Assembly (NCBI RefSeq): GCF_014656435.1
Contig: NZ_BNCK01000008.1
Location: 186,001-250,000, forward strand
Direction of reading: 5' to 3'
Length of the DNA: 64,000 nucleotides
Source: Thalassotalea marina
GTDB lineage: Bacteria > Pseudomonadota > Gammaproteobacteria > Enterobacterales > Alteromonadaceae
A model generated the notes under the pieces. It made no database searches and was not told where the DNA came from. It was given only the letters and a program-made list of their open reading frames with translations. Positions within the stretch are counted from its first letter, which is position 1. The number at the start of each line of letters is the position of its first letter. The position numbers and the translations under genes are program-made. Below are positions 18,053 through 34,666 of this stretch, piece after piece.

Positions 18053-18066
18053 TGTAATCATTTACA
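18053..18066. promoter_or_regulatory. LacI-family operator upstream of the regulator gene
   Basis: TGTAATCATTTACA matches the perfect palindrome TGTAATCGATTACA at 19503 in 12 of 14 positions, differing only at the two middle bases. It lies about 190 bp before the regulator start and suggests self-control. Confidence 0.55.
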
Positions 18067-18256
18067 TTGTACTCTCGAAAGCTTAAATTAGTTGTGGGCT
18101 TAATGATTAAGCATGAGCTCTTACTAAAGCTCCTAAAAGTCATAGACTTAAATGGAATTTTATATAATATTCGTATGTGTTGAATAGAATTTAAGTATCT
18201 ATTTTGGATACAATTGTTATCGGTTTCATCAACCTGAGTCCAAATAGGAATAAAAC

Positions 18257-19267
18257 ATGTCGACAATTAAAAAAGTCTGTCAGCTGGCAGGAGTTTCTAC
18301 TGCTACCGTGTCTAGAGCGTTGAAAAATCCCAGCATGGTGAGCGAAAAGACTCGAGAGAAAATTTTAAAGGCTATTGCTGAGTCAGGCTATCGACCTAAT
18401 GTGCTTGCTTCAAGCATTAAAACAGGCAAAACGAATACGATTGTTGTTCTTGTTCCTAATTTATCCAATCCTTTTTTTCTCAAGATCATTCAAGGAATTG
18501 AACAAGCTGCTCAAGAAAGTGGTTACTCTGTTTTATTAGGTGATACCCAAGGTGACCCGGCTAGAGAGAACGAATATGCAGGCATGGTTCTGTCTAATCG
18601 AGTTGATGGAATTATCCACTTGGATCACTCTTTCCCATTCTCAGATAATGACGCTGCCCTTGCTGAAGCCGTTCCAATGGTAAGTGTCTGTGAACGTATC
18701 GTTTCTGATATAAAATATCCAGTCATTGAGTTAGATAATTATGCAGCATGTCGAGCTTTGGCAAAGCATTTAATCAGTTATGGGCATCAAAAATTTGCTG
18801 TGATAGCCGGCCAAATTGATAGTCAAATTCATCGAGATCGTTTGGGCGGAATAACCAGTGTTTTAGCAGAAGAGAATATAGCGTTTAATGACGATATGAT
18901 TGTTGGCGGTGAATATAGCATCGAAGCTGGGGAGAAGGGAGTTAATATTTTAATGTCTCGACATGAAAAACCTACAGCGATTTTTTGCTTTAATGATGAT
19001 ATTGCCATAGGTGCTATTCATGAAATCAAAAAACATGGCTTGAAGGTACCTGGAGATATCTCCGTTGTTGGTTTTGATGATATTAAAGTGTCTGGTTATA
19101 TCGATCCCCCCTTGACAACTATCCATCAACCGGCCAGTGAAATGGGTAGAAAAGCGGTTGAAGTAGTGCTGAAACAAATTCGTAAAGAAGTGCTAAAAAA
19201 AGATCGCGAGATTATGCAATTTCAACTGGTAGAAAGAGAAAGCACAGGTCTAGCTAAAAATAGTTAG
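18257..19267 (+). CDS. LacI family transcriptional regulator of the glycan locus
   Basis: The 336-residue protein has the N-terminal LacI helix-turn-helix and hinge (TIKKVCQLAGVSTATVSRAL, then GYRPNVLASSIKTGKTNTI) followed by a periplasmic-binding-protein-like effector domain (LVPNLSNPFFLKIIQGIEQA, then VVGFDDIKVSGYIDPPLTTI). An AGGA site precedes the ATG. Of the LacI-type genes, this is the only one in the window and it is directly followed by the glycan genes, so it most likely represses them until a glycan fragment binds. Palindromic sites at 18053, 19420 and 19503 are probable targets. The inducer is unknown; Man-GlcNAc or GlcNAc is a guess from the neighbours. Confidence 0.92.
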   Translation: MSTIKKVCQLAGVSTATVSRALKNPSMVSEKTREKILKAIAESGYRPNVLASSIKTGKTNTIVVLVPNLSNPFFLKIIQGIEQAAQESGYSVLLGDTQGDPARENEYAGMVLSNRVDGIIHLDHSFPFSDNDAALAEAVPMVSVCERIVSDIKYPVIELDNYAACRALAKHLISYGHQKFAVIAGQIDSQIHRDRLGGITSVLAEENIAFNDDMIVGGEYSIEAGEKGVNILMSRHEKPTAIFCFNDDIAIGAIHEIKKHGLKVPGDISVVGFDDIKVSGYIDPPLTTIHQPASEMGRKAVEVVLKQIRKEVLKKDREIMQFQLVERESTGLAKNS

Positions 19268-19380
19268 AGGCTAATTCTGGCGCTGCAAACGATGGGTATA
19301 GGTGTTAGGTGATATGCCTTACCATGCCAGCAACACTATTTTGATACCTGCCTTTTGAATAATTTTTATACATAAAATTG

Positions 19381-19433
19381 TTGACACTCTTTTTTTTTGA
19401 TTCTAGTATAAATTTGTTTTGCAATCGATTACA
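19381..19433 (+). promoter_or_regulatory. Promoter of the glycan operon with overlapping LacI operator
   Basis: TTGACA (19381-19386) and TAGTAT (19404-19409), 17 bp apart, form a strong promoter with start near 19416. TGCAATCGATTACA (19420-19433), a near-palindrome of the LacI-family type, sits at about +5, a position for repression. Confidence 0.78.
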
Positions 19434-19456
19434 TTTTGTTTCTATATGATTGCTAT

Positions 19457-19490
19457 AAGCCATGAGGGGCAAAACTCGCATGGCTTTTTT
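19457..19490 (+). terminator. Intrinsic-terminator-like hairpin in the leader of the receptor gene
   Basis: AAGCCATG at 19457-19464 pairs with CATGGCTT at 19479-19486, extended inside by GAG/CTC, and a run of T follows. It lies after the operon promoter and before the second operator, so it could attenuate the operon. It could instead end read-through from the lacI-type gene, if the main promoter is further downstream. Confidence 0.65.
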
Positions 19491-19502
19491 AATATAGTGT
19501 AA

Positions 19503-19516
19503 TGTAATCGATTACA
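19503..19516. promoter_or_regulatory. Second LacI-family operator in the receptor leader
   Basis: TGTAATCGATTACA is a perfect 14-bp palindrome with the central CG typical of LacI-family operators. It lies 83 bp from the first operator and 113 bp before the receptor start. The full gap 19268-19628 holds, in order, the promoter, operator, hairpin and this operator. Confidence 0.75.
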
Positions 19517-19628
19517 TGTGGTCGTTTGTTTTACATAAATGTTAATTAGGGCTTTAGGCTCTGTAATTCACATTAGTCCATAACTACAAAAATAAATATA
19601 TAACAATAAATCTGAAGGAGAACACGAC

Positions 19629-22586
19629 ATGCAGGCGGGAAAGTTAGACGCACCTCTCAATGTTCCATTATCTACCTTTTTTAAACGCTCACTTCTGTGT
19701 AGTGCAATTTTATGTGCAGTAGGCGTTGCACATGCACAAGAGTCGGCTGAATTAGATGATAAAAAAGAAAATGATATAGAAGTCATAGAAGTCACGGGTA
19801 TATTGGCAAGCTCAGCTAAAAACCTTTCAATTAAAAGGCTGTCAAATGCTATGGTTGACGCCATCACAGCAGAAGACATCGGCAAATTCCCTGACAAAAA
19901 TGTTGCTGATTCACTGCAACGTGTCCCTGGCGTTGTTATATCAAGAAGCGGCGGTGAAGGCTCTACGGTTAGTATTCGTGGTCTTTCATCGGATTTAACG
20001 TATACGCAACTTAACGGTAATTTTATTGCGTCGTCTCCTGGTGAACCTTCAAGGTCATTTGACTATGCGCTGCTTCCCTCTGCAATGATTGAACGTGTTG
20101 AGGTCTATAAATCACCTGAAGCTCACATTGATGAAGGTGGTGTTGGTGGTACCGTTTTACTGCATACCAGAAAGCCACTTGATATGGATGCTAACTCAGG
20201 CACTTTCGGTGTTGAATATACTTATGCAGATGTAACTGATAAGTACGAGCCTCAATTTACCGGTGTTTATTCATGGAAGAATGAAGCGTCGACACTTGGT
20301 TTTTTGTTGGGCTATACCCAACAAGATAGAACCAATCGTTCTTTAACTGGTAGCGCAAACTCTTGGCGTTGGACAGGAAGCGCCAGTACTTCGGCTGACG
20401 TTAATGGCAATTTTGTAGAAAATACCTTGACCAATGCGGCACCAGTTGACGCGTATGGCAATCGCTATGAAAACATGTGGGTGCCACAATTTACCCGTAC
20501 CAGTGTTTTTGAAGAACAGAGAGAGCGAGAAGGGGTACAATTCACCACACAATGGCGTCCGCTTGAGCGCTTAGAACTTACCTTTAACTATTTTGGTTTT
20601 AAACTGGGGTTAGACTCCACAATGTCTGCTATTGATATGCCTGAATGGCATCTGACCAATGGCATGATTACGGATATTGCTACCGATGATTCAGGCACCA
20701 TTATTACTGGTGCTGACTATACCATAGGTGCGACCGGTGAAGAACAAATGATGCATTTCCCGTGGATTCGCGGGGTATACAACAGAGAAGAGTCAACTTC
20801 TGACACTTTTGATTTTTCAGCGATGTATGAAGGTGATAGCTACACGTTAACCGTTGTTGCAGGTCATACGGAATCTGAAGGCGGGCCAGAAGAGCGCTAC
20901 GAAGCTGCCTATTATGCTTCAAATAAAGACACGGGTGAGCCAGCAATCGAAAACTCAGCAGCATATTCTGGTTGGTACATCGACAATAAAAAAATGCATA
21001 TTTATGTTGACCCTAACATGCTAACTAATCTACAGGCAGGTATTGGTGGTGGTGTTGATCCAGGCTCTTCTAACTCAAGTTTTGTTAAAAGCACACTTGA
21101 AGAAGACTACTTTCAAGCAGACCTTAACTTAGATATAGATTTAGGCATCTTTCATACGCTTCGAACTGGTCTCAAATATCGCAAAGCAAGTTTGCATCGG
21201 GAAACAAGAAATACATTTTATTTAGATCCCAGCTTTGACATCGCAGCAGGAGAAGCAAGCGAAGGCGGCATTACCAGAGCAGACAGTTACCAGTGGAATG
21301 ACGGTATGCCTGACGCGCGATTAATACTAAATGATAAGCCTATGGGAAATATTCCCGGAGGTTTTGGTATTAACTTAATGCCAACGATTAATTGGGGCGC
21401 ATACGCGGATTACCTAAAAGATAACTTTGTAAAATATACACGCAACGAAAAGAACTTTGTTTATGACATTGAAGAGCAAATTACCGCTGGTTATGTACAA
21501 GGTGATTTTATGGGCGATAGGTTTCGAGGAAACTTTGGCGTAAGACTGGTTAAAACTGAAACAACAGGCTCTTCTACTGACCTATTCATATTTTATAAAA
21601 ACTATTGGGATGAAGACGGCAATCAACTGAGTGGCGATACCTATTCTGAAGATGAATATATCTTAGTTGAACAAACAAGCGAAGATACACATGTACTGCC
21701 TAGTTTTAACATTGCTTACGATGTTACCGATAAACTTGTACTTCGTGGTGCGTTGGCAAAAGTTATTTCGCGTCCTGACTACAGTGATCTCGGTAGCCAA
21801 GAAAGACTTACTTGGATCTCAAATGAATTTGCTTCAGATCGCGCTGAATTTAATACCATACCTGGCTGGTCGGGTAGTGGCGGTAATAAAAACTTAAAAG
21901 CATTTGAATCTGTTCAGGCTGATATAAGTTTAGAGTACTACTACGCCGACGGATCTGCGGTTGGTTTAGCACTGTTTAACAAGGATGTTGACAACTTTGT
22001 TGTTCCTCTAGTAATTGATACCACTAAAGATATTCCTACCAGAACGTTTGAAATTGCTGGACAAACGGTGACAGCTGGTGGCGACAATGTGCTTATTGAA
22101 AACTACTCAACAACTGGTAATGGCTCTAATGCAACGTCTCGTGGTGTTGAAGTGTTTATCCAGCATGTTTTTGCTAATGGCTTCGGCTTTTATAGTAACT
22201 ACACCTACAACGATACTAACAAAGCAGACGTTGACGTAGACGGTGCCAAAATTGGTGAATCAGGCTTGATTGGCAGCGCAGACTATCAATTTAACTTTTC
22301 AGCGTACTACGAAAATGAAGACTTTAGCGTACGAGCGTCTTATAACCTTCGCGGCGACACTTTGCTGGGCATTGCTAACGGTATGGAAGTATTCGCTGAT
22401 AAGTACGACCAAATTGATATTAATGCGTCGTACAACATTACAGATAAATTAGTCGCAACCGCCTCTGTTATCAATTTAACAGAGTCTGAGAGCTTTTCGC
22501 ATATCGGCGATGACACTGACGCTCGATATCGTAGCAATGCTTATACCGGTCGCCGCATTTACGCTGGCATTTCATATAGTTTCTAA
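19629..22586 (+). CDS. TonB-dependent outer-membrane receptor
   Basis: The 985-residue protein is a TonB-dependent receptor that would import a glycan or glycopeptide through the outer membrane. It has a signal peptide (residues about 18-36, FFKRSLLCSAILCAVGVAHA), a TonB-box-like IEVIEVTG, a plug domain (VDAITAEDIGKFPDKNVADS, then QRVPGVVISRSGGEG), and a long beta-barrel ending in an aromatic residue (ISYSF). A good GGAG precedes the ATG. The plug sequence is typical of carbohydrate-type receptors of marine Alteromonadales. It is the first gene of the glycan operon and is followed by the discoidin lipoprotein, which may serve as its surface partner. The ligand is inferred only from the neighbours. 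Confidence 0.93.
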   Translation: MQAGKLDAPLNVPLSTFFKRSLLCSAILCAVGVAHAQESAELDDKKENDIEVIEVTGILASSAKNLSIKRLSNAMVDAITAEDIGKFPDKNVADSLQRVPGVVISRSGGEGSTVSIRGLSSDLTYTQLNGNFIASSPGEPSRSFDYALLPSAMIERVEVYKSPEAHIDEGGVGGTVLLHTRKPLDMDANSGTFGVEYTYADVTDKYEPQFTGVYSWKNEASTLGFLLGYTQQDRTNRSLTGSANSWRWTGSASTSADVNGNFVENTLTNAAPVDAYGNRYENMWVPQFTRTSVFEEQREREGVQFTTQWRPLERLELTFNYFGFKLGLDSTMSAIDMPEWHLTNGMITDIATDDSGTIITGADYTIGATGEEQMMHFPWIRGVYNREESTSDTFDFSAMYEGDSYTLTVVAGHTESEGGPEERYEAAYYASNKDTGEPAIENSAAYSGWYIDNKKMHIYVDPNMLTNLQAGIGGGVDPGSSNSSFVKSTLEEDYFQADLNLDIDLGIFHTLRTGLKYRKASLHRETRNTFYLDPSFDIAAGEASEGGITRADSYQWNDGMPDARLILNDKPMGNIPGGFGINLMPTINWGAYADYLKDNFVKYTRNEKNFVYDIEEQITAGYVQGDFMGDRFRGNFGVRLVKTETTGSSTDLFIFYKNYWDEDGNQLSGDTYSEDEYILVEQTSEDTHVLPSFNIAYDVTDKLVLRGALAKVISRPDYSDLGSQERLTWISNEFASDRAEFNTIPGWSGSGGNKNLKAFESVQADISLEYYYADGSAVGLALFNKDVDNFVVPLVIDTTKDIPTRTFEIAGQTVTAGGDNVLIENYSTTGNGSNATSRGVEVFIQHVFANGFGFYSNYTYNDTNKADVDVDGAKIGESGLIGSADYQFNFSAYYENEDFSVRASYNLRGDTLLGIANGMEVFADKYDQIDINASYNITDKLVATASVINLTESESFSHIGDDTDARYRSNAYTGRRIYAGISYSF

Positions 22587-22672
22587 CAAAAAAATAGGCC
22601 AATTTAAAATCAAAACCAAAACCCAATGGCCATGAGTTAGAGCTTGAATTGAAAGATTAAGAGGAACAAATT

Positions 22673-25561
22673 ATGAGTAAATTTACAATACTCTCCCTAA
22701 GCACGTCGATAGCGCTGGTGTTGTCAGCGTGTGGTGGCGGAAGTGATGATCCAAAACCAGAAAGCATACCAAAGAGAATAGAGTCAACGTCTGCAACCTT
22801 GTCAGGTAGTGCTATTAAGGGCACTTTGGCATTTGCAGATATTGAAGTAAACGCGTTAAACGGTGCTAAGTTAAAAAGACTAGGAGATACGGCACAAACC
22901 AATACCGAAGGTAACGGCGAAATTACGGTAAAGAGTGACGCTGGCTTTGGCATAACAGGCATTGTTGAAATAACAGCTACGGCAAACGCTAATAGCTTGA
23001 TGACATGTGATGCCGTGCAATGTGGTGACGCCTCAATGGGAGATACTGTCGCCGGCAACGTTATTGCTGGTACCCAGTTGAGTACACTAACGTACGTGAC
23101 TGTGCCTTATGGTCATCAAGCAACGGCAAGCGATGCTACCTTTCATATCAATGTATTGACATCTTTTGCTACAAAGATGATCCAAGAAGCGATTAGTGAA
23201 GGTCGGAATGTCTCTACCGAGCAACTACTGTTATTAGCACAGCAAGAGTATTCAACATTGGTATTAAAGGCATTAGGCATTGATGCGAATAACGTTAATG
23301 TATTTTCTCTACCTGTAGTGAGTGCAGAAAAATTAGAAAACTTTATTGTCAGCACTGAGTGTGAAGATCAGCCTGTGTTAGACGATAATGGCGAACCTTT
23401 GTTAGATGACGATGGTAACGAGGTAATGGAAGAAGTATGTACAGATACTTATCTGCCTGATACTGAAGTTAAACTATCGTTGCTTAATGGTGCTTTCTCA
23501 TCATTTGCATCGGGTTATACGCAACAAGCTACTTTGGTCAATGCTTATGCAAACATGCAGGCTGCAATCGCAGGTAATCCAGATGCATTGAACGCCTTAC
23601 GAAGTCACTTATATCAATCTTTAACGCAACATCCATTTATCGCTGAACTTGGCTTAACCGCAGATGATGTAATGGATTTAACTTTACCACTCATTGAAGA
23701 ACAAGCGGCATCAGGGCCAGTTCGGGAAGTAACAACACCAGAAAATATGGCTGGCGCTGTTATTACCGCTCGAAACAGAATTGGTGATGGTGAGGCAGAA
23801 ACTAAAGCATTTGATGGTGATGTTGATACTAAGTGGTTAGATCATAATGATTGGGCCGGTGCACCAACGGTGGAAGATCCGTCATGGATTCAAGTGCAAT
23901 TTGAGCAGGCTCATGCTGTTAATGCCGTTTACATTACCAGTGCAAATGATGCCGATAATAGAGATCCTGAAAACTTTGATATTTTAGGCTCTCAAGACGG
24001 AGAAACATGGGTTACGTTAGCCTCATTTGTCGGTGAGGCGTTTGATGAGCGCTTTCAGCGAAAAGCCTTTAAATTTGCCAATAGCTTAGCTTACCGTTAT
24101 TACCGTCTGAATATTACAAAAAACAAAGGTAATGACACGTTAATGCAATTGGCAGAGATTCAATTTGTTGGTCCAATTTATGAAAGTGTCGACCACACAA
24201 AAGTTGACTCTAATATTGCGATTACGGCAAGAAATCGTATCGGTGATGGTGAAGCAGAAAGTAAAGCGTTTGATGGTGACGTAAATACGAAATGGTTAGA
24301 TCACAACGACTGGGCAGGGGCACCGAGCAGCGAAGACCCTTCATGGGTACAAGTTGATTTCACTGAAGCTGTTGCCGTTAATGAACTAGCAATAACGAGT
24401 GCAAATGATGCACCAAATAGAGACCCTGAAAACTTTGATATTTTAGCGTCAAATGACGGTGGAGCAACATGGACACTTTTAGGATCATGGTTGGGGGAAT
24501 CGTTTGATGAGCGCTTTGAGCGTAAAGTGTTTGGCTTTGCGAACAGCTTAGCATTTACCACATATCGCTTAAACATCACAAAAAATAAGGGTGATGATAC
24601 GCTAATGCAAGTCGCGGAAATTGAGTTGATAGGTCCAAAGTTACCTGATTTAAATCATGGCTTGGCAGTCGGTACCACAATCACTGCGAGCAATCGTATC
24701 GGTGATGCGGAAGCTGAAACCATGGCATTTGATGGTAACCTTGAAACGAAATGGCTAGATCATAATGATTGGGCTGGAGCACCAACAGAAGAAGCGCCTT
24801 CTTGGGTGCAAGTGCAATTCCCTGAACCTGTTACAGTAAACAAACTAGGACTGATTAGCGCAAATGATGCAGAGAATCGTGACCCTGAAAACTTTAATAT
24901 TCAAGCGTCAAACGACGGTGAAAATTGGATCACGCTAGCAAATTGGCTGGGCGAATCGTTTGACCAACGTTTTGAACGTAAATTATTGGTTTTTAGTAAT
25001 GACTTAGCGTATAGCTACTACCGCTTAAACATCACGAAAAACAAAGGTGATGATACCTTAATGCAAGTTGCTGAAATTGAGTTGATTGGACCGCAATACA
25101 ATGCTGTAGATCATTCAGAAACAGCAGGTGTTGTGATCACTGCGAGAAACCGTATTGGTGATGGTGAAGCAGAAACTAAAGCGTTTGACAATGATACTAA
25201 CACTAAATGGTTAGATCATAACGATTGGGCAGGAGCACCAAGTGAGGAAGATCCTTCTTGGATTCAGGTAGACTTTCTAACTGCACAAATAGTTAGTAGC
25301 TTGGCAATCACCAGTGCCAATGACGCCGATAACCGAGACCCTGAAAACTTCAACTTACAAGGCTCGAACGATGGTGGAGTAACTTGGGTGACTATAGGTA
25401 ACTGGGTTGGTGAGTCATGGGATAACAGATTTGAAAGAAAGCTATTTGACATGGGCAATGGCTTCGCTTTTGAAAGTTATCGCCTAAATATTACTAAAAA
25501 TAAAGGTGACGATACCTTGATGCAAATCGCTGAAATAGAATTAATCGGCCCGCAAATGTAA
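22673..25561 (+). CDS. Surface lipoprotein with four tandem discoidin (F5/8C)-like domains
   Basis: The 962-residue protein starts with a lipoprotein signal ending LSAC at C20, followed by GGGSDD. Residues 30-360 form a region I cannot name; it contains an acidic loop flanked by two cysteines (C230 and C256, with DDNGEPLLDDDGNEV between). Four repeats of 152-153 residues follow, starting near residues 364, 517, 670 and 822. Each has the F5/8 type C / CBM32 pattern: AFDGDVDTKWLDHNDWAGAP, SWIQVQF, ANDADNRDPENF, and YYRLNITKNKG. Such domains bind sugars. It follows the receptor by 86 bp, in the position of a SusD-type or SGBP-type glycan-binding partner. An AGAGGA site precedes the ATG. Surface exposure is inferred. 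Confidence 0.88.
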   Translation: MSKFTILSLSTSIALVLSACGGGSDDPKPESIPKRIESTSATLSGSAIKGTLAFADIEVNALNGAKLKRLGDTAQTNTEGNGEITVKSDAGFGITGIVEITATANANSLMTCDAVQCGDASMGDTVAGNVIAGTQLSTLTYVTVPYGHQATASDATFHINVLTSFATKMIQEAISEGRNVSTEQLLLLAQQEYSTLVLKALGIDANNVNVFSLPVVSAEKLENFIVSTECEDQPVLDDNGEPLLDDDGNEVMEEVCTDTYLPDTEVKLSLLNGAFSSFASGYTQQATLVNAYANMQAAIAGNPDALNALRSHLYQSLTQHPFIAELGLTADDVMDLTLPLIEEQAASGPVREVTTPENMAGAVITARNRIGDGEAETKAFDGDVDTKWLDHNDWAGAPTVEDPSWIQVQFEQAHAVNAVYITSANDADNRDPENFDILGSQDGETWVTLASFVGEAFDERFQRKAFKFANSLAYRYYRLNITKNKGNDTLMQLAEIQFVGPIYESVDHTKVDSNIAITARNRIGDGEAESKAFDGDVNTKWLDHNDWAGAPSSEDPSWVQVDFTEAVAVNELAITSANDAPNRDPENFDILASNDGGATWTLLGSWLGESFDERFERKVFGFANSLAFTTYRLNITKNKGDDTLMQVAEIELIGPKLPDLNHGLAVGTTITASNRIGDAEAETMAFDGNLETKWLDHNDWAGAPTEEAPSWVQVQFPEPVTVNKLGLISANDAENRDPENFNIQASNDGENWITLANWLGESFDQRFERKLLVFSNDLAYSYYRLNITKNKGDDTLMQVAEIELIGPQYNAVDHSETAGVVITARNRIGDGEAETKAFDNDTNTKWLDHNDWAGAPSEEDPSWIQVDFLTAQIVSSLAITSANDADNRDPENFNLQGSNDGGVTWVTIGNWVGESWDNRFERKLFDMGNGFAFESYRLNITKNKGDDTLMQIAEIELIGPQM
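23762..25561 (+). repeat. Four tandem coding repeats of 459/459/456 bp
   Basis: Repeat units begin near 23762, 24221, 24680 and 25136, each encoding one discoidin-like domain with linker. Units are alike at both protein and DNA level but have diverged at many third codon positions, so the array is an old internal amplification. Confidence 0.9.
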
Positions 25562-25692: not shown

Positions 25693-27438
25693 ATGAAAAC
25701 AATAGTTTCAAGTGCGTTACTACTAGCAAGTACACTACTAACACCTTTCCCGATTTACGCGGACATTAATCATAATAAGCCGCCATTGTCGTTAACCTTA
25801 GAGCAGGTGAAGTCTTGGAGTGAAACGCCGTCGTTGAAAGCTGAAAACGTTATAAGTACGGTACCTGTTCAACCTAGGTTTCGTGTTGAAACTGATTTGC
25901 CGACACACCCAGATCTTAAAGTACTTATTGCGCCAGATGGTATGAATAACTTGGGCAACTATAACACGCAACAAGATGTGTTTAATCTCTATAACTTTAC
26001 TCACTGGTCTTATATTGACTCATTAGTTTGGTTTGCAGGCACAGCAAATGAAACCGTTAGTATACCGGCTCGCCCATGGGTTGATACTGCGCATCGTAAC
26101 GGCGTTAAAGTACTGGGATCAATTTTTTTAGCGGTTAACCAGTATGGCGGTTCAATTGACACTGTTAAGCGCTTTTTAGCTCGTGACGAAAATGGCGAAT
26201 TTCCAGTTGCTAAAGAGCTTTTAGCAATAGCCGATTATTATAATTTTGATGGTTGGCTGATGAATCAAGAAACTGATTTGACCAAACAAAAGGATGAAAA
26301 TGGTCAGCTAATCGCTCGTCAAGACTTTAAAACAGGGAAATATCTTGCTCAAGAGATGCAAGACTTTATGCGTTATTTAACCCAAATAGCACCAGAGCAT
26401 ATGGAAATTCACTGGTACGACGCCATGATTAGTGACGGGCAGGTAAAATGGCAAAATATGCTCAATAAGCAAAACACGCCTTATTTTCAAGATGGAAAAC
26501 AACGTATCAGTGATGCAATATTCTTAAATTACTGGTGGAATGAGGACATGGCGAAGCAGTCTTTTTCACACGTAAATCAAATCGACCGTGCTCCTTATGA
26601 TGTTTATTTCGGTGTTGACTTGTGGCCAGCACGAAATGCACAAGCAATGTTTAGGTCTACGCAGTGGCTAGATGCTTTATTCCCTGCAACACACAAAGCG
26701 GGATTGGGCTCGATTGCTTTATTTGGTAACAACGCCAATTTTAACTTTGCAGGTACTGATGACATTAAGGCTTTGAGCCGTTTTCAGTCCGACAAACAAG
26801 ACTATCAAGCTTTTTACCAAACTGAACAACGACTGTTTGCAGGCGATGATTTAAACCCCATGACACATGACAAATCGCAAAGTTGGGTGGGTTTAGCTCG
26901 GTATATTCCGGCAAAATCGCCATTAATGGCCTTGCCCTTTAGCACAAGTTTTAACACCGGCCATGGCTTGCAATGGTTTGAACATGGGACAGCGGTGCGT
27001 GGCGAATGGCACGACATAGCAAAGCAAGACATTGTACCGACGTGGCAATTTGCTATCGAAGGTAATAACTCTTTGGCGCTCAACTATGACTTTGACAGCG
27101 CCTATTCCGGAGGAAGTTCACTTGCAGTAGTTGGTGATCTATCACAAGGACGCGCCGTTGTACCGCTATACAGTACTCGCTTCAACATTAATTCAGCGAG
27201 TAGCTTTACAGTAGCGTTTAAGCAAAATACTCCAGGCGAGTTGATAGAAGTTTGGTTAGAGACTGCCAATGGAAAACACATCTCTGTGTCTTTACCTGCA
27301 AAAGGCTCAAATTGGCAAACACATAAAGTGAGCTTGAGCGATTATCAAGGTCAATCTATTGTGGCTATAGGGTTAGCGACCAAGGATAAAACGGTAACGT
27401 CATTTAAGGCAAATATTGGATTTATGGAGTTAAACTAG
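25693..27438 (+). CDS. Endo-beta-N-acetylglucosaminidase, GH85 family
   Basis: GH85 enzymes cut between the two GlcNAc residues of the N-glycan core, leaving one GlcNAc on Asn. The ATG at 25693 gives 581 residues with a clear signal peptide (VSSALLLASTLLTPFPIYA); the TTG at 25642 would add 17 residues before it. The catalytic motif FDGWLMNQE carries the conserved Asn (N191) and the acid/base Glu (E193). Other GH85 stretches are LIAPDGMNNLG, FTHWSYIDSLVWFAG, AHRNGVKVLGSIF and MEIHWYDAMI. The C-terminal 180 residues look like a beta-sandwich. The stop overlaps the cutC start. Product and site (periplasm or outside) are inferred from family and signal. Confidence 0.92.
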   Translation: MKTIVSSALLLASTLLTPFPIYADINHNKPPLSLTLEQVKSWSETPSLKAENVISTVPVQPRFRVETDLPTHPDLKVLIAPDGMNNLGNYNTQQDVFNLYNFTHWSYIDSLVWFAGTANETVSIPARPWVDTAHRNGVKVLGSIFLAVNQYGGSIDTVKRFLARDENGEFPVAKELLAIADYYNFDGWLMNQETDLTKQKDENGQLIARQDFKTGKYLAQEMQDFMRYLTQIAPEHMEIHWYDAMISDGQVKWQNMLNKQNTPYFQDGKQRISDAIFLNYWWNEDMAKQSFSHVNQIDRAPYDVYFGVDLWPARNAQAMFRSTQWLDALFPATHKAGLGSIALFGNNANFNFAGTDDIKALSRFQSDKQDYQAFYQTEQRLFAGDDLNPMTHDKSQSWVGLARYIPAKSPLMALPFSTSFNTGHGLQWFEHGTAVRGEWHDIAKQDIVPTWQFAIEGNNSLALNYDFDSAYSGGSSLAVVGDLSQGRAVVPLYSTRFNINSASSFTVAFKQNTPGELIEVWLETANGKHISVSLPAKGSNWQTHKVSLSDYQGQSIVAIGLATKDKTVTSFKANIGFMELN

Positions 27439-28175
27439 TGACTCAAATAGAAGTTTGTTTAGATAGCAATGACCTCGCGAAATTGGAGCAAAATGTTAAC
27501 GTTTCTTACAATGCTGGTGCTGACCGAATAGAACTTTGTTATGACCTTTCCTCAGGTGGTTTAACGCCTAGTCAACAAGCAATCTCAATTGCACGTCAGG
27601 CATTTCGACAAAGAGCTGGTTTATTAGTGATGATTCGGCCGAGAGCAGGTGACTTCGTCTATTCTGCTGAAGAACTATTAGTGATGAAAAGACAAATTGA
27701 AGTTGCCGCTCAGTTAGGTGTTAATGGCGTAGTTTTTGGCACCTTAACTCGTCAAAATGCCCTTGATGAAGTGGTGTTACAAGCATTGATGCCACTATGT
27801 CATTCCTTAAATTTGCACGTTACTTTTCATCGTGCTTTCGATCAGCTTTCAAACAAAGCGACAGCGTTAGCTGAGCTTGTAAGCTATGGCGTAAACAGAG
27901 TGTTAAGCAATGGCACGCCTTGGGGAGCTGACTTAGGGGCTGTAGATGGCATTTCAACGTTAAAAAATATCATCCGCTGGGCTGATAACGCTATAGAGTT
28001 AGTGGTTGGCGGCGGTGTTAATCCAGACAATATACAGCAATTGCATCATCACCTTATCGGGAGATCAGCTGGTAAAGCAGCGCGGGTGTCTTTCCATGCT
28101 AATAGTGGCGTTATGCAAAATGATGTCGTCGATGGCACAAAACTACATGAAATGAGAAACCATGTGTTGTCATGA
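27438..28175 (+). CDS. cutC: CutC family protein
   Basis: The 245-residue protein matches CutC throughout: IEVCLDSNDL at the start, AGADRIELCYDLSSGGLTPS, MIRPRAGDFVYSAEE, GVVFGTLTRQ, TFHRAFDQ and VVGGGVNPDNI. CutC is a TIM-barrel family first linked to copper tolerance in E. coli, a role since doubted. The GTG start shares one base with the stop of the endoglycosidase gene (TAGTG), so translation is coupled. That and its place between a glycan-cleaving enzyme and beta-mannosidase point to a role in glycan use, which is inference. No signal peptide is present, so it acts in the cytoplasm. Confidence 0.93.
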   Translation: MTQIEVCLDSNDLAKLEQNVNVSYNAGADRIELCYDLSSGGLTPSQQAISIARQAFRQRAGLLVMIRPRAGDFVYSAEELLVMKRQIEVAAQLGVNGVVFGTLTRQNALDEVVLQALMPLCHSLNLHVTFHRAFDQLSNKATALAELVSYGVNRVLSNGTPWGADLGAVDGISTLKNIIRWADNAIELVVGGGVNPDNIQQLHHHLIGRSAGKAARVSFHANSGVMQNDVVDGTKLHEMRNHVLS

Positions 28176-28256
28176 TGAATGATTTGAGTGAGTCTTTGCC
28201 TTTACGTGCTTCACTGTAGGGCTTATCCAAAAAATATTGAGTTAATTAGTTAATTT

Positions 28257-30788
28257 ATGTTTGTATCAGAAGAAGTAAGTAGACAAGAAACCAAACACGT
28301 CGACCTAAATGGTTACTGGCAATTTAGAAAGTCAGGGGATGACCAATGGGCAGATGCGACAGTGCCTGGATGTAACTTTACTGATTTACTTGATATTGGT
28401 GTGATTGACGACCCATTTTACAGAAAAAACGAAAATTCATTGCAGTGGATTGAACATTGTGACTGGGAATATAAAAAAGTATTCCATGTTAATCATGATG
28501 ACTTGAACGCAGCTGAAGTGCTGTTAAATTTTGATGGCTTAGACACCTATTGTGATGTGTACTTAAACAAGACGCTTATTCACCAAAACGAAAATATGTT
28601 TGTTGGCGCTAAAGTTCGCTGTTTACACGCTCTTGTTTTGGGCGAAAATGAGCTATTGGTCAAATTTAGATCGCCGATAAATGAGGTGATGGCTAAGCAC
28701 AAGGCGAAGGGGTTTACTTACCCAGCAGAAAACGATAAATCTGAAGAACGGCTGAGCGTTTATTCACGTAAAGCACCTTATCAGTATGGCTGGGATTGGG
28801 GGCCACGTTTTGTCACTTCAGGTATATGGCGCGATGTCAGTATTGATTTTTTAGCGCAATCACATATTTGTGACATATATATACAACAAGTTTTCCTGGA
28901 TGATGCGAAAGCGCAATTAGTTGTTAATGTGACGCTCAATGCCATTGATCGTTTTTCCGGACAACTAGTGATTGTCTGTGATTCAATACCTGAGTTGACT
29001 ATACCTGTTGCTGTGGCAATGGAAGCTGGCGAAAAGACTTACGCCATTCCTATCACCATTATTAACCCAAAACGCTGGTGGCCAGCAGGTTTAGGTGATG
29101 CACATTTATATGCGCTAAATATCTCACTTTATCAAGGGCTGCGGTGCATTTCACACCAAGAAAGAAAAGTGGGTCTACGCACCATTGAAGTGATCAATGA
29201 AAAGGATGACATAGGCGAGTCTTTTTTTGTCAAAATTAACGGTTATCCAACTTTCATGAAAGGCGCGAATTATATCCCTTCGGACAGTTTTCCTAGTCGT
29301 GTTACTAGTGAAAAATACAAAAAAGTGTTTGAAGATGCGGTAGCTGCCAACATGAATATGTTACGAGTTTGGGGAGGTGGTATTTATGAGGCGGACGAGT
29401 TTTACCAACTAGCTGACGAGTACGGCATACTTATTTGGCAAGATTTTATGTTTGCCTGCAGTTTGTACCCCGCCGACGAAGCCTTTCTTGAGAATGTTAG
29501 AGCAGAAGTGATATACAACGTCAAACGATTAAGAAACCATGCTTGTTTGGTCTTATGGTGTGGTAACAATGAAACAGAAATGGGCATTAAATTTTGGAAC
29601 TGGCCGCAAACATTTAATTATTCTGATGAAATTTACAAGCAGTTAAAACAAGAATACGAACTGTTATTTAAATCTGTATTGCCTGCCTTAGTTGAACAGT
29701 TGGATCCCGAGCGCTTTTATTTTTCTTCTTCGCCAATTGGTTTTTGGGAAATTAAAGCAGATGATAACAAAGGGGATAACCATTATTGGGGCGTTTGGCA
29801 TGGTGAACAGCCCTTTAGCGAGTTTAAAAATCGCATTCCACGTTTTATGAGTGAATTTGGTTTTCAGTCTTTTCCCTTGTTATCTTCAGTGTGTCAGTAC
29901 AGCGAACAACGTGACTTACACATTGAATCTGATGTAATGAAGCTGCATCAAAAACATCCACGTGGCAACGCTCTGATCAGCAGTTATATGGAAAGTGAGT
30001 ATAAAAAGCCAAAAGATTTTGAGAGCTTTTTGTATGTCAGCCAAGTACAGCAAGCGTTAGGCATGAAAATAGCGTTTGAAGCGCATCGCAGTGCTATGCC
30101 ATTTTGTATGGGGTCTTTATATTGGCAGTTTAACGACTGTTGGCCTGTTGCTTCTTGGTCGGGCATTGATTACTACGGAAAGTGGAAAGCGATGCATTAT
30201 CAGGTTAAAAGATCATTTGAGCCTGTTGCTGTTTTTATTGATGAAAGGGATCAAAATATTAGGTTAAACCTAGTTTCAGATAATCTTGCAACCAAAAGCT
30301 ACCAGCTACAGGTGACCTTGGCGAGTTTTAGGGGAGAAGTATTATGGTCTCAACAACAAATTGTCGAGCTTTTGGGATCAAGCTCAAGGTATGTTGAACT
30401 TTCTTTGAATCACGTGCTTAAAAACGCTGACAAATCATCGGTTGTTTTAACGGCGTCATTGTTTGAAATTGAAAATACGTTACCAATTAGCACGGCACTT
30501 CATTATTTCGTGCCCACCAAAGATCTAGCATTAGAATCACCGACAATGAATATACGTTCGGAAATATCAGATGGGTTGCTTGTAGTTTCATTAAAATCAG
30601 ATACGCTAGCTCGGCAAGTATACGTTGAAGCTCCAGTAGCCAAAGAAAACTTTTCTGATAACTTTTTTGATTTAGTCGCAAATCAGGAAAAGGTGATCAC
30701 TTTGTCTATTGAGCAGATCCCAGTTTCATGTCGTTCAACACTATTATCCGGCATTAAAGTGGTTTCAATGATAGATAGTCATTTGTAG
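28257..30788 (+). CDS. Beta-mannosidase, GH2 family
   Basis: The 843-residue protein has the GH2 layout: N-terminal jelly-roll (VDLNGYWQFRKSG, VPGCNFTDLLD), immunoglobulin-like domain, then the TIM barrel. The acid/base is E439 in WCGNNETEMG and the nucleophile E533 in RFMSEFGFQSFP. SVYSRKAPYQYGWDWGPRFV, MNMLRVWGGGIYE and FACSLYPAD are typical of beta-mannosidases rather than beta-galactosidases. No signal peptide is present, so it should act in the cytoplasm on imported oligosaccharide, such as Man-beta-1,4-GlcNAc. The ribosome binding site is weak. It lies 81 bp after cutC. Confidence 0.94.
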   Translation: MFVSEEVSRQETKHVDLNGYWQFRKSGDDQWADATVPGCNFTDLLDIGVIDDPFYRKNENSLQWIEHCDWEYKKVFHVNHDDLNAAEVLLNFDGLDTYCDVYLNKTLIHQNENMFVGAKVRCLHALVLGENELLVKFRSPINEVMAKHKAKGFTYPAENDKSEERLSVYSRKAPYQYGWDWGPRFVTSGIWRDVSIDFLAQSHICDIYIQQVFLDDAKAQLVVNVTLNAIDRFSGQLVIVCDSIPELTIPVAVAMEAGEKTYAIPITIINPKRWWPAGLGDAHLYALNISLYQGLRCISHQERKVGLRTIEVINEKDDIGESFFVKINGYPTFMKGANYIPSDSFPSRVTSEKYKKVFEDAVAANMNMLRVWGGGIYEADEFYQLADEYGILIWQDFMFACSLYPADEAFLENVRAEVIYNVKRLRNHACLVLWCGNNETEMGIKFWNWPQTFNYSDEIYKQLKQEYELLFKSVLPALVEQLDPERFYFSSSPIGFWEIKADDNKGDNHYWGVWHGEQPFSEFKNRIPRFMSEFGFQSFPLLSSVCQYSEQRDLHIESDVMKLHQKHPRGNALISSYMESEYKKPKDFESFLYVSQVQQALGMKIAFEAHRSAMPFCMGSLYWQFNDCWPVASWSGIDYYGKWKAMHYQVKRSFEPVAVFIDERDQNIRLNLVSDNLATKSYQLQVTLASFRGEVLWSQQQIVELLGSSSRYVELSLNHVLKNADKSSVVLTASLFEIENTLPISTALHYFVPTKDLALESPTMNIRSEISDGLLVVSLKSDTLARQVYVEAPVAKENFSDNFFDLVANQEKVITLSIEQIPVSCRSTLLSGIKVVSMIDSHL

Positions 30789-30803
30789 TGTTGGAGACTA
30801 GTT

Positions 30804-32594
30804 TTGAATTTACACCTAATAGATATTCTTATCATCATAGGTTATTTGCTTGGCACGATAGCGATTGGTTTTTATTTGTCTAAAAAGGCAAGTAAAAGTA
30901 TCAATGCTTATTTCCTCGGGGGTAAGAAGATTTCTTGGTGGGTGTTAGGTGTATCAAATGCATCGGGTATGTTTGATATTGCTGGCACGATGTGGTTGGT
31001 GTCGATGTGTTTCGTCTATGGGATGAAAAGTGCTTGGTTACCTTGGGTATGGCCTATTTTTAATCAAGTATTTTTAATGGTGTATTTGTCGGCCTGGTTA
31101 AGGCGCTCCAATGTGATGACGGGAGCTGAATGGTTACGTACACGTTTTGGAGATGGTCGAGGCACTGAATTATGCCATATTGCTGTTGTATTTTTCGCTG
31201 TAGTAAGTGCTATCGGCTTCATTTCGTATGCATTTATCGGTATTGGCAAATTTGCTGTTGTCTTTTTTCCATGGGATTTATCACCCAATACGTACGCATT
31301 ATTGATATTTTTCTTTACCACCTTATATGTGGTGAAAGGTGGAATGTATAGCGTTGTTTTTACTGAGTTATTACAGTTTGTCATTATGACAATTGCCGCA
31401 ATATCAGTGGGTATAATTTCCATGAATATGGTGAGTGCAGAAGCGCTTGATGCGGTAACGCCTGACGGTTGGAATGAGCTGTTTTTTGGCTGGCAGCTAG
31501 AATTAGACTGGACGGGCGTCATTGACTCAGTCAATCAAAAAATTTATCAAGATGGCTTTGGCCTGTTTGGCTTTTTCTTCATGATGATGGTATTTAAAGG
31601 GGTACTGTCAAGTTTAGCGGGTCCTGTGCCAAATTATGACATGCAAAGAATACTGGCGACCAAAAGCCCAAAAGATGCTGCTAAAATGAGCGCAATAGTG
31701 TCTCTTGTTATGTTTTTTCCGCGCTACATGATGGTGGCAGGGTTATCAGTTTTAGCACTTGTATACATGGGACCTAAAATTCAAACCAACAATGCAATAT
31801 TTGATTTTGAACAAATTCTACCTTTCGCGATTAGTGAGTTAATGCCAGTTGGACTGGCAGGCTTGCTAATTGCGGGGCTACTGGCGGCTTTTATGTCAAC
31901 CTATGCTGCTGCAGTAAACGCAGCGCCAGCATACATTGTTAATGACATATATAAAAAGCATATTAATCCCAATGCCGATAATCGTACTTATATTCAGATG
32001 AGTTATCTGGTCACAACTTTATTAGTGGTTGTTGGCATTGGTGTCGGTTTGTTGATTTCGTCTATTAACGACATCATGCAGTGGATTTTTGGCGCTTTGT
32101 TTGGTGGATATGCCGCTGCTAATATCCTTAAATGGCATTGGTGGCGCTTTAATGCGTATGGTTATTTTTATGGTTTAGTAGCAGGCCTGTTGGCTGCACT
32201 ATTATTGCCTTTATTGTTTCCTGAGCTGCAACCACTTTATGCGTTTCCATTTTTGTTCTTAGCGGGCCTTATAGGCTCAATTTCAGGTACCTTGTTAACA
32301 CCCGCAGAAAAGGATGAAGTGTTGATAGCATTTTATCAACAAGTTAGGCCGTGGGGCTGGTGGTCACCCATTCGTAAAAAAGTTAAACAGCGTAATCCTA
32401 CTTTTGTGCAAAAAAGCCATTTTCAACGTGATGTTAGTAATGTAGTTGTCGGTATTGTCTGGCAATTAACACTTGTCGTTATTCCCATCTATCTGGTTAT
32501 TAGAGAGTTTCATGCTATGTCGATTGCGATATCTTTGTTGGCATTTACTTCATTTATCTTGAAAAAAAATTGGTACGACAAATTAGAAAATTGA
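30804..32594 (+). CDS. Sodium:solute symporter (SSS) family transporter
   Basis: The 596-residue inner-membrane protein has about 13 hydrophobic segments and the SSS pattern (YFLGGKKISWWVLGVSNASG near the start, then GLLIAGLLAAFMSTYAAAVNAAPAYIVNDIY in the middle). It would use the sodium gradient to import a small sugar or derivative. The start is TTG at 30804 with GGAG seven bases upstream. It lies 15 bp after the beta-mannosidase gene, so the two are co-transcribed, and the likely substrate is what that enzyme cleaves or the products of the secreted enzymes. The cargo is inferred from context; SSS members also carry amino acids and vitamins. Confidence 0.9.
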   Translation: MNLHLIDILIIIGYLLGTIAIGFYLSKKASKSINAYFLGGKKISWWVLGVSNASGMFDIAGTMWLVSMCFVYGMKSAWLPWVWPIFNQVFLMVYLSAWLRRSNVMTGAEWLRTRFGDGRGTELCHIAVVFFAVVSAIGFISYAFIGIGKFAVVFFPWDLSPNTYALLIFFFTTLYVVKGGMYSVVFTELLQFVIMTIAAISVGIISMNMVSAEALDAVTPDGWNELFFGWQLELDWTGVIDSVNQKIYQDGFGLFGFFFMMMVFKGVLSSLAGPVPNYDMQRILATKSPKDAAKMSAIVSLVMFFPRYMMVAGLSVLALVYMGPKIQTNNAIFDFEQILPFAISELMPVGLAGLLIAGLLAAFMSTYAAAVNAAPAYIVNDIYKKHINPNADNRTYIQMSYLVTTLLVVVGIGVGLLISSINDIMQWIFGALFGGYAAANILKWHWWRFNAYGYFYGLVAGLLAALLLPLLFPELQPLYAFPFLFLAGLIGSISGTLLTPAEKDEVLIAFYQQVRPWGWWSPIRKKVKQRNPTFVQKSHFQRDVSNVVVGIVWQLTLVVIPIYLVIREFHAMSIAISLLAFTSFILKKNWYDKLEN

Positions 32595-32703
32595 GCGCAG
32601 TAGTAACTTTAAGAGAGTGCTCAAAAATAATCTCTATAGAAGAGTTGACTAGTAAATGTATTAGCGAGTTGATTTTAATGATAAACATAGAAGTGAGAAA
32701 AGA

Positions 32704-33570
32704 GTGACCGATATAATATTTGCTGGCGTTGATGGTGGTGCAACTAATTGCCGTGTACGTATTGAAAACGACCGAGGTGAGCTGCTTGGCTTAGGGTATG
32801 GTGGAACAGCTAACCCTTCTCATGGCGTTAAAACAGTTACTGATTCTATTATGATGGCAGTTACGGAGGCAATGAGGAATGCTGACTTACCATCACATCG
32901 TATTTCTTCGTTAGTTGTTGGCGCAGGTTTGGCTGGCTTACATTTACCAAAATATCAAGTATTGATGGATAGTTGGGTACACCCCTTTAAATCTTTGGTG
33001 TTAACAGATGACTTAACTACCGCTTTATATGGTGCACATGCAGGTGAAGACGGTGCCTTGATAATTGCCGGAACGGGTTTTAGTGCTAAAGCTATGGTGC
33101 AAGGGAATGAGACATTAATTGGAGGACAAGGCTTTTTAATGGGGGATTATTGCAGTGGCGCATGGCTTGGTTTTCAAGCAGTACAAAAAGTGATTTTGGC
33201 ACAAGATGGTTTATCTGCCCCCACCTTGTTAACAGAGTTAATTCAAGAACACCTTGGATCGCCACAAATTGCTGAACACTTAATTGGCGCTAAAGCGGTT
33301 GAATACGGTAGGATGGCGCCATTGGTATTTCTAGCTGCGTCTTCTGGCGATCAAATCGCAAATAGAATACTTGATAAGAGTGCTTCCTTTATTGATAAAG
33401 TAGCTGAGAAATTACTAGCAACGAACCCACCACGTTTATCCATTACAGGTGGTGTTGCAGAGCAAATTACAACAAGGCTCGCACCAACGACTATACAGCA
33501 ACTAAAGCCGATGAGGCTCTGTGCAGAGCAAGGGGCTATTTGTTTTATGAAAACTCAGCTTGGTCAGTAA
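32704..33570 (+). CDS. BadF/BadG-type amino-sugar kinase (GlcNAc or GlcN kinase)
   Basis: The 288-residue protein is an ASKHA-fold kinase of the BadF/BadG/BcrA/BcrD family. The phosphate-1 loop is FAGVDGGATNCRV near residue 10; the later IIAGTGFSAKAM is the phosphate-2-like loop, and YCSGAWLGFQAVQKVILAQD follows. It resembles eukaryotic NAGK and the glucosamine kinase GspK of Vibrio cholerae, so GlcNAc and GlcN are both possible substrates. In this operon, GlcNAc freed by the aspartylglucosaminidase and beta-mannosidase is the better guess. The start is GTG at 32704. No nagA or nagB is present in the window, so later steps lie elsewhere. Confidence 0.85.
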   Translation: MTDIIFAGVDGGATNCRVRIENDRGELLGLGYGGTANPSHGVKTVTDSIMMAVTEAMRNADLPSHRISSLVVGAGLAGLHLPKYQVLMDSWVHPFKSLVLTDDLTTALYGAHAGEDGALIIAGTGFSAKAMVQGNETLIGGQGFLMGDYCSGAWLGFQAVQKVILAQDGLSAPTLLTELIQEHLGSPQIAEHLIGAKAVEYGRMAPLVFLAASSGDQIANRILDKSASFIDKVAEKLLATNPPRLSITGGVAEQITTRLAPTTIQQLKPMRLCAEQGAICFMKTQLGQ

Positions 33571-33608
33571 AATTGCTTAGATAACAATAAAATTCAGGGA
33601 GTTAATAT

Positions 33609-34598
33609 ATGAATAGCAAAAGACAATTTTTAAAGTTCTCACTTTTTTCAACGGCGGTAGCTTCAAGCGTTACTTCCTTTACGGGTGCGGTGGCTGCTAC
33701 TCGCAAGTCAGGTAATAAACCAAATAAACCTATCGTTATTTCTACCTGGCAACATGGTATTGCAGCAAACAAACAGGCATGGACGGTGTTGGAAGAAAAC
33801 GGTAAGGCAATAGATGCAGTAGAGTCAGGTGTTCGTGTTCCTGAAGCAGATCCAAACGTGATGACTGTAGGTTATGGAGGATATCCCGATAGAGAAGGAC
33901 ACGTCACGCTTGATGCTTGCATCATGGATGAAAACCAAAATTGTGGCTCGGTTGCGTATTTAAAACACATAAAACACCCGATTTCGGTAGCAAGACTTGT
34001 TATGGATAAAACGCCACATGTTATGCTCGCTGGCCAAGGAGCTTTAGATTTTGCTTTGTCACAAGGATTTAAAAAAGAAAACTTACTAACAGATAAGGCA
34101 GAACGAGCTTGGAAAGAGTGGCTTAAAGAATCAAAATATGCGCCAGTAATCAATATAGAAAATCACGACACCATTGGTATGTTAGCGTTAGATAAACATG
34201 GCGATTTATCTGGGGCTTGTACTACTAGCGGCGCTGCTTTTAAAATGGCGGGGCGAATTGGGGACTCTCCTATTATCGGTGCCGGCCTATATGTTGATAA
34301 CGAAGTAGGGGCTGCTACCGCGACAGGTATGGGCGAGTTAATGATTAAAACGGTTGGCTGTCATTTAGTTGTAGAGATGATGAGACAAGGGTTGAGCCCG
34401 CAACAGGCTTGTCAAAAAGCGGTTGAAAGAATAGCGACGAAGCTGGGTGATTATAAGTCATTTCAAGTTGGCTTTATCGCGCTAAACAAACAAGGAGAGT
34501 ACGGCTCTTATTGTATTCAACCGGGGTTTGATTATGCCGTGACGGATGTTAAAGGCACCACGTTAATTGATGCGCCAAGTATTCTTGCTTCTTCCTGA
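33609..34598 (+). CDS. N4-(beta-N-acetylglucosaminyl)-L-asparaginase (aspartylglucosaminidase)
   Basis: This Ntn-hydrolase cleaves the bond between GlcNAc and asparagine. The 329-residue protein has the self-processing site HDTIGM: cleavage before T188 would give alpha and beta chains with T188 as nucleophile. Other family stretches are ISTWQHGIAANKQAW, VGYGGYPDREGHVTLDACIM and GAATATGMGELM. The N-terminus (SKRQFLKFSLFSTAVA) looks like a Tat signal with KR instead of RR, or a Sec signal, so the enzyme is exported. A GGGAG site precedes the ATG. It is the last gene of the operon and removes what GH85 leaves on asparagine. Confidence 0.93.
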   Translation: MNSKRQFLKFSLFSTAVASSVTSFTGAVAATRKSGNKPNKPIVISTWQHGIAANKQAWTVLEENGKAIDAVESGVRVPEADPNVMTVGYGGYPDREGHVTLDACIMDENQNCGSVAYLKHIKHPISVARLVMDKTPHVMLAGQGALDFALSQGFKKENLLTDKAERAWKEWLKESKYAPVINIENHDTIGMLALDKHGDLSGACTTSGAAFKMAGRIGDSPIIGAGLYVDNEVGAATATGMGELMIKTVGCHLVVEMMRQGLSPQQACQKAVERIATKLGDYKSFQVGFIALNKQGEYGSYCIQPGFDYAVTDVKGTTLIDAPSILASS

Positions 34599-34634
34599 CA
34601 TTAGTTGGGCATGTAACTTATGTTAGTTTTGTAT

Positions 34635-34666
34635 AGAAAAGGCGAGCTTGTTAGCTCGCCTTTTCT
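34635..34666. terminator. Bidirectional terminator closing the glycan operon
   Basis: AGAAAAGGCGAGCT pairs with AGCTCGCCTTTTCT (14 bp) around a four-base loop. It lies between the convergent aspartylglucosaminidase and ycgB genes and overlaps the last codons of ycgB. Confidence 0.9.

Follow-up and report, generated by a model that had tools for sequence, protein, structure and literature searches.

Several bacterial systems for the breakdown of N-glycans have been described. The nix cluster of the gammaproteobacterium Xanthomonas holds a TonB receptor, an enzyme for the bond between the two core N-acetylglucosamine residues (GlcNAc-GlcNAc) and a beta-mannosidase; an asparaginase gene, XAC3092, and cutC, XAC3091, lie near it, the latter called a copper gene (PMC5700972, PMC6718126). 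A high-mannose operon of Bacteroides thetaiotaomicron combines an endo-beta-N-acetylglucosaminidase with GH92 alpha-mannosidases (PMC10154615), and the alf-2 genes of Lactobacillus casei, which serve the use of fucosyl-GlcNAc-asparagine (Fuc-GlcNAc-Asn), include a glycosylasparaginase and a GlcNAc kinase (PMC6960285). An operon with PNGase, GH18, fucosidases, a mannosidase and an asparaginase is mentioned in PMC12381499. Here we analyze a 64,000-nucleotide stretch of Thalassotalea marina DNA (the window), in which nine genes, all on the + strand and spanning 18257–34598, include those for a GH85 endoglycosidase, a GH2 beta-mannosidase, a glycosylasparaginase (aspartylglucosaminidase, AGA) and a CutC-family protein. 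We think it probable that this locus supplies the core-handling half of a system of two loci that degrades high-mannose N-glycoproteins, and that CutC belongs to the pathway, not to copper handling.

Predicted enzymes for the innermost bonds of the N-glycan

The gene content supports a locus predicted to be dedicated to the N-glycan core. Pfam and NCBIfam confirmed the families of the eight genes named in the original prediction (LacI regulator, receptor, lipoprotein, GH85, GH2, sodium:solute symporter, kinase and Asparaginase_2); a ninth, the cutC gene at 27438–28175, had been overlooked. As proposed there, and as judged from sequence, the three innermost bonds would all be covered: GlcNAc-GlcNAc by GH85 (25693–27438, +), mannose-beta-GlcNAc (Man-beta-GlcNAc) by GH2 (28257–30788, +) and GlcNAc-Asn by AGA (33609–34598, +).

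Alignment to characterized enzymes shows intact catalytic features in GH85 and AGA. The GH85 protein (PF03644, 273 bits) matches Endo-A with 257 bits, with N191-Q-E193 aligned over the catalytic Asn and Glu, and this NQE motif is kept in 22 of 22 GH85 proteins, the window copy included. AGA matches the structure of the Flavobacterium meningosepticum glycosylasparaginase with 445 bits, as compared to 134 bits for the best isoaspartyl peptidase, and its nucleophile Thr188, in the motif HDTIGM, aligns with that enzyme. We assign it as a glycosylasparaginase (EC 3.5.1.26), closer to AGA than to IaaA and with the catalytic Thr kept; in the full-length Elizabethkingia enzyme, autocleavage occurs between residues 187 and 188 (PMC13204146). 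The GH2 protein is closest to BtMan2A (768 bits; 2JE8/7OP6), and the top 11 PDB sequences are all named beta-mannosidase. The BadF-type kinase (32704–33570, +; PF01869), which is NagK_SO3507-like, matches GlcNAc kinases; its sole NCBIfam match, NF046058 (NagK_SO3507), scores 296.4 bits, below the cut-off of 370.

N-termini were read by eye. That of GH85 is signal-like from the ATG at 25693, in a reading frame that opens with TTG at 25642, and most GH85 proteins of related loci likewise have a signal-like N-terminus. AGA begins with KRQFLK followed by a hydrophobic stretch, which resembles a twin-arginine translocation (Tat) signal to the eye; the corresponding segment is RRxFLK-like in most relatives and KRxFLK in the window and in two related loci, L025 and L029. 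No signal peptide was seen by this reading in GH2 or CutC.

For capture and import, the locus encodes a TonB-dependent receptor of the TIGR01782 type (19629–22586, +; 631.8 bits against a cut-off of 310), which provides the outer-membrane import expected of an N-glycan locus. The adjoining lipoprotein (22673–25561, +), with the lipobox LSAC by eye and four F5/8 type C (CBM32-like) domains (PF00754), is a candidate surface glycan-binding protein. Its structural model has a pLDDT of 83.7 and Foldseek matches that are mostly of discoidin/CBM32 type. The N-terminal ~340 residues of the lipoprotein have no Pfam match and are present in the relatives aligned. None of the nine locus proteins scanned with Pfam matched the SusD family. 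The SSF symporter (30804–32594, +; PF00474) probably imports Man-GlcNAc or GlcNAc.

A GlcNAc kinase and a symporter would serve any source of GlcNAc, including chitin or peptidoglycan. AGA, GH85 and beta-mannosidase are present together, however, a set that fits the N-glycan core, and characterized GH85 enzymes act exclusively on N-glycans according to a review of the field (PMC10154615). We therefore reject the chitin reading, and consider a target in chitin-type or peptidoglycan-derived GlcNAc highly implausible.

Alpha-mannosidase genes in related loci and elsewhere in the genome

Within the order, GH85 was detected in two of 394 genomes, including the one studied here. A scan of named genome contigs returned 80 GH85 loci, and in 21 of these (L025–L042, L046, L050 and L057) most or part of the locus was found, with the same set of genes in similar order; a search of relatives had been suggested in the original prediction. 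These relatives belong to Paraglaciecola, Thalassotalea, Rheinheimera, Bowmanella, Lacimicrobium, Aliiglaciecola, Aestuariibacter, Alteromonas, Marinibactrum, Alkalimonas and uncultured organisms; their orders are what we take them to be from the genus names. Looser versions occur in Sphingomonas, Azospirillum and one Woeseiaceae metagenome-assembled genome, and the remaining GH85 loci share little besides GH85. As filtering of open reading frames had hidden genes in high-GC loci, a six-frame comparison was used for L035, L043–L049, L051–L104 and L135–L152, and the remaining Alteromonadales-type loci were compared by their open reading frames.

In 17 of the 18 relatives that have the symporter (63–77% identical to the window copy), a GH92 alpha-mannosidase gene follows it directly; the exception is L050. 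The order in L029 is SSF-GH92-NagK-AGA, and the window looks like this order minus GH92. A tblastn search with the in-locus GH92 of Rheinheimera texasensis as the query found neither a GH92 gene nor a remnant in the window, and exo-glycosidases for the arms, expected in the same cluster of an N-glycan utilization locus, are absent from it. In R. texasensis, GH92 is adjoined by an endonuclease/exonuclease/phosphatase-family protein (L003:550–1443), and a similar gene is found in L028.

A search for alpha-mannosidases elsewhere in the T. marina genome, also suggested in the original prediction, identified two uninterrupted GH92 genes on contig C3 at 252–257 kb. They lie in a second locus (G000:C3:249–268 kb; L020, L021) with an AGE-type epimerase, a PfkB kinase, an MFS permease, a LacI regulator of its own, two BSP-type peptidases carrying F5/8 and PKD domains, and two TonB receptors. 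Genes similar to those for the epimerase (62%) and permease (61%) are found in an R. texasensis cluster divergent from lacI, and genes similar to those for the permease (70%) and kinase (56%) in Marinibactrum. We asked whether the C3 enzymes are the in-locus GH92 in a new location; this was rejected, the best identity to an in-locus enzyme being 44.6%. GH20 gave five matches in four open frames elsewhere in the genome. Thus, the statement that alpha-mannosidases and hexosaminidases are missing holds for the locus but not for the genome, which has two GH92 genes and GH20 in four frames.

From their absence, the original prediction had suggested that the locus lives on core fragments left by other enzymes or organisms, without demannosylation of its own. 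The lack of any alpha-mannosidase gene or remnant in the window by tblastn agrees with this, as do L050, likewise without GH92 after the symporter, and the difference between the LacI regulators of the two own-genome loci, which are 27% identical. Against these stand the GH92 genes that adjoin the symporter in 17 of the 18 relatives having it, and the two intact ones in the same genome. Because the latter lie beside peptidases and mannose enzymes, as well as receptors, the notion of leftovers from others is unsupported, and we regard scavenging as improbable. The simplest reading is that high-mannose glycoproteins are degraded by two separate loci, so that leftovers of others are not needed; the window locus and the C3 locus would then act jointly.

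CutC is linked to glycosylasparaginase in distant bacteria

The cutC gene (27438–28175, +) overlaps the GH85 stop codon by 1 base at its start, and CutC follows GH85 in 19 of the 20 related loci long enough to tell; L035 (Marinibactrum) is without CutC, and L041, in which the locus is cut off, was excluded. The protein matches PF03932 with 176.8 bits (cut-off 23.3) and falls below the cut-off of the NCBIfam equivalog ‘copper homeostasis protein CutC’ (131.8 versus 311 bits).

The linkage of CutC to AGA was measured in several sets of genomes. Among 37 genomes, CutC is present in 30 of 30 with a true AGA (over 50% identity) and in 2 of 7 without (Fisher p 5e-5, a test without phylogeny correction, which weakens its weight for a functional link). 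These genomes were chosen mainly for GH85 and not at random: 33 were named, to which were added the genome studied here, R. texasensis (G052, with proteins identical to those of L040) and two picked for AGA, with L053 left out. Outside the Alteromonadales-type GH85 locus, CutC directly adjoins AGA in 12 of 14 true-AGA regions, from Chryseobacterium, Arenibacter, Hymenobacter, Sphingomonas and two genomes of a further gammaproteobacterial family. The two regions without it hold second AGA copies of Sphingomonas, and neither of two IaaA-type control regions has CutC (0/2). A further true-AGA region was left out of the 14; it holds a second AGA copy of Paraglaciecola arctica (G721:C60:122065–123042), 63% identical and located outside the GH85 locus.

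In the samples of Gammaproteobacteria, 3 of 321 genomes gave a match to AGA and 7 of 294 a match to CutC. In 296 Bacteroidota genomes, AGA was found in 124, CutC in 92 and both in 80 (odds ratio 24, ignoring phylogeny). Where both are present, they lie less than 3 kb apart in 41 of 80 genomes and less than 300 bp apart in 33, pairs split over contigs being counted as apart. Chance adjacency, for which ~0.15 genomes with the pair under 3 kb apart are expected, is rejected. By order, the close pairs are AGA>CutC in 34, divergent in 6 and CutC>AGA in 1. The Bacteroidota table is uncertain both ways, as the AGA search has false negatives (in 5 of 8 ‘CutC alone’ genomes inspected, an AGA does adjoin CutC) and CutC may have been missed in some of the 44 AGA-only genomes. 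We also labeled 77 CutC proteins, among which AGA-linked copies are overrepresented, by ‘AGA within 6 kb’ on a quick tree. The label switches at least 14 times, three rows (L234, one of the five just named, L025 and L029) having been scored too strictly as without AGA; the linked copies occur in AGA>CutC, CutC>AGA and divergent orders. In L025 and L029, AGA lies 6.6 and 7.8 kb from CutC, in the same locus.

The AlphaFold2 model of CutC is a TIM barrel with a pLDDT of 95.6. Its first fold match is human CutC (E 5.3e-22), the family being found in humans as well (3iwp). The best PDB matches outside the family include ribulose-phosphate 3-epimerase, thiamine-phosphate synthase, KDPGal aldolase and ketogulonate-phosphate decarboxylase. 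The invariant residues Glu5, Glu32, Arg67, His131, Arg132, Asp135 and His220 are placed by the model in or just after strands, a region that can hold the active site in barrels of this kind.

We also inspected cutC genes without an adjoining AGA. Some lie near sugar genes: a SIS-domain protein (Azospirillum, L223), a NagB-like protein (L235), ROK kinases (L247, L251) and phosphomannose isomerase (L252). L222–L241 were hand-picked as cutC genes away from detected AGA and are not a random sample; their neighbors were only partly scanned with Pfam, and L227–L234 are mostly outside that scan. The second CutC of a Sphingomonas (L224) adjoins a GH29 fucosidase, with a GH125 mannosidase and a GH3 enzyme close by, an N-glycan-like setting; the stretch read contains no AGA.

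Proposed pathway and the role of CutC

In the two-locus system that we favor, the receptor and the lipoprotein would capture and import glycopeptides, exported GH85 would split the chitobiose core, and the GH92 mannosidases of the second locus would trim the arms in the periplasm. The symporter would take Man-beta-GlcNAc or GlcNAc inward, where a cytoplasmic GH2 would yield mannose and GlcNAc, and NagK would phosphorylate the latter. AGA, presumably exported via its Tat-like signal, would free GlcNAc and aspartate from GlcNAc-Asn. GlcNAc is set free by AGA first as its 1-amine, and the conversion of this 1-amino-GlcNAc has so far been assumed to be spontaneous. CutC would be a cytoplasmic enzyme that acts on the AGA-derived GlcNAc, its 1-amine or its 6-phosphate, the reaction being a guess. 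We favor CutC as an enzyme for the AGA-derived sugar because of the AGA linkage, the sugar-gene neighbors, the fold and the invariant residues. A more specific proposal, that this CutC subgroup and perhaps all CutC proteins serve GlcNAc-Asn catabolism by removing or converting the 1-amino-GlcNAc from AGA or its 6-phosphate, is put forward tentatively, as a possibility somewhat short of even.

Alternatively, CutC could be a mere bystander or serve as a copper protein, inherited together with AGA by happenstance. The family annotation points this way, as does the treatment of cutC as a copper gene in the Xanthomonas papers (PMC5700972, PMC6718126); each of CutC and AGA also occurs without the other, and some cutC genes are found in unrelated contexts. 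Yet a bystander would have to come to lie beside AGA in several gene orders across Alphaproteobacteria, Gammaproteobacteria and Bacteroidota, and in the window to overlap the GH85 stop codon. By Pfam there is no copper gene among the other genes of the locus, the copper-homeostasis equivalog cut-off is not reached, and some AGA-distant copies are near SIS, NagB or ROK genes. On these grounds we consider the bystander or copper explanation rather unlikely, though it carries more weight than scavenging.

Several observations weigh against a role of CutC in the pathway or against the joint action of the two loci. Cys7 and Cys34 are kept in 18 of 18 aligned CutC proteins, and metal binding is possible. 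Because AGA would be exported and CutC has no recognizable signal peptide, any metabolite shared by the two must be imported. The fold match is only a lead because TIM barrels resemble one another, and the fold list also contains glycolate oxidase and Rubisco. CutC without AGA is found in a Thalassotalea (L026) and in Azospirillum (L047), and of the seven gammaproteobacterial CutC genomes three have AGA and four gave no AGA match. The Bacteroidota set includes 44 genomes with AGA alone and 12 with CutC alone, and in 39 of the 80 with both the pair is not within 3 kb. Of 69 AGA regions read for neighbors, with flanks limited to 1.5 kb in 30 cases, 25 contain CutC. Other cutC genes have non-sugar neighbors, namely peptidase M20 (L226), RNase Y (L236), a solute-binding protein (L248), a short-chain dehydrogenase (L249), PEP-utilizing and DAHP enzymes (L255) and a PALP enzyme (L256). 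A second CutC of the T. marina genome (G000:C2:506037–506630, L222) lies, by eye, directly after a parE-like gene; in the quick tree, it clusters with the CutC of the locus. The gene list of the L. casei GlcNAc-Asn pathway, as presented in PMC6960285, is without CutC, and the locus tags of cutC and asnA2 in L. sakei are far apart (PMC3146418). With respect to joint control, no operator of the window type was found in the C3 locus at up to one mismatch.

Regulator, operator and boundaries of the locus

The LacI-family regulator (18257–19267, +; PF00356, PF13377) is 65–77% identical to its counterparts, which were identified in 16 relative loci. A script scan identified a LacI-type operator upstream of lacI at 18053–18066 (TGTAATCATTTACA, two mismatches to TGTAATCGATTACA) and two upstream of the TonB receptor, at 19420–19433 with one mismatch and at 19503–19516 as the perfect palindrome TGTAATCGATTACA, which is conserved in relatives. 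At up to one mismatch, the 21 relative loci (443 kb) contain 45 sites, as compared to none for a reversed control; L035, L042 and L046 have sites only at two mismatches. One of the two exact sites in R. texasensis lies between lacI and the divergent GH92/MFS/epimerase cluster. A genome-wide search for further regulon members in T. marina returned five sites in all, against three for the reversed pattern. Of the three other one-mismatch sites, two are inside a gene and one is between the 3' ends of two unrelated genes, and the search added no regulon member.

The limits and the single direction claimed for the locus (18053–34666) are borne out by the nine + strand genes, the operator at the start and the hairpin at the end. 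The start at 18053 coincides with the first operator, and the end at 34666 with the close of a terminator hairpin (34637–34664, unstranded; core 34641–34660). This hairpin was spotted by reading of the sequence and was not listed by a consensus terminator scan; its loop covers the stop codon of a convergent spoVR-like gene. The flanking genes are unrelated, with FadR, an M24-type peptidase and NhaB upstream and SpoVR, DUF444 and PrkA downstream. Elsewhere in the window, five tandem tRNA-Asp(gtc) genes lie within ~535 bases at 60643–61177 (+).

Comparison with known systems

The earlier statement that no gammaproteobacterial locus with exactly this set has been described is roughly right for the literature searched; the nix cluster of Xanthomonas, with cutC and an asparaginase nearby, is a described N-glycan cluster of a gammaproteobacterium. 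In titles and abstract openings of the literature on N-glycans, Alteromonadaceae, GH92 and GH85, we found no Alteromonadales N-glycan locus. A link between CutC and AGA was not found in the open-licence papers searched, and the portions seen of PMC5700972, PMC6718126, PMC6960285, PMC12381499, PMC3146418, PMC6998099 and PMC10434189 make no such link. The locus would add Alteromonadales to the bacteria that forage on glycoproteins, here with a capture module that lacks SusD and with a conserved regulator site. It also points to a testable function for CutC through its tie to aspartylglucosaminidase, which is lost in human aspartylglucosaminuria. Because CutC often adjoins AGA in the distant bacteria examined, we suggest that it has a real job in sugar metabolism.

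The B. thetaiotaomicron high-mannose operon relies on SusD-type import, in contrast to the F5/8 lipoprotein of the window. It resembles the two-locus system in pairing its endo-beta-N-acetylglucosaminidase with GH92, but this enzyme is a GH18 protein (BT3987) in place of GH85, and the account of the operon in the review names no AGA (PMC10154615). BtMan2A, another B. thetaiotaomicron enzyme, is the closest solved relative of the window GH2. The nix cluster is unlike the window in having a fucosidase, a hexosaminidase, a beta-galactosidase and an alpha-mannosidase, for plant glycans (PMC5700972, PMC6718126), and the word GH85 does not occur in PMC5700972. L. casei alf-2 differs by its fucosidase and MFS permease and by an AGA that has no signal peptide and is 28% identical to the Elizabethkingia enzyme (PMC6960285). 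The window AGA is like the Flavobacterium/Elizabethkingia glycosylasparaginase in its high-scoring match and in having the autocleavage Thr at the same place (PMC13204146); unlike that enzyme, it lies inside a GH85/GH2 cluster and has a Tat-like KR N-terminus.

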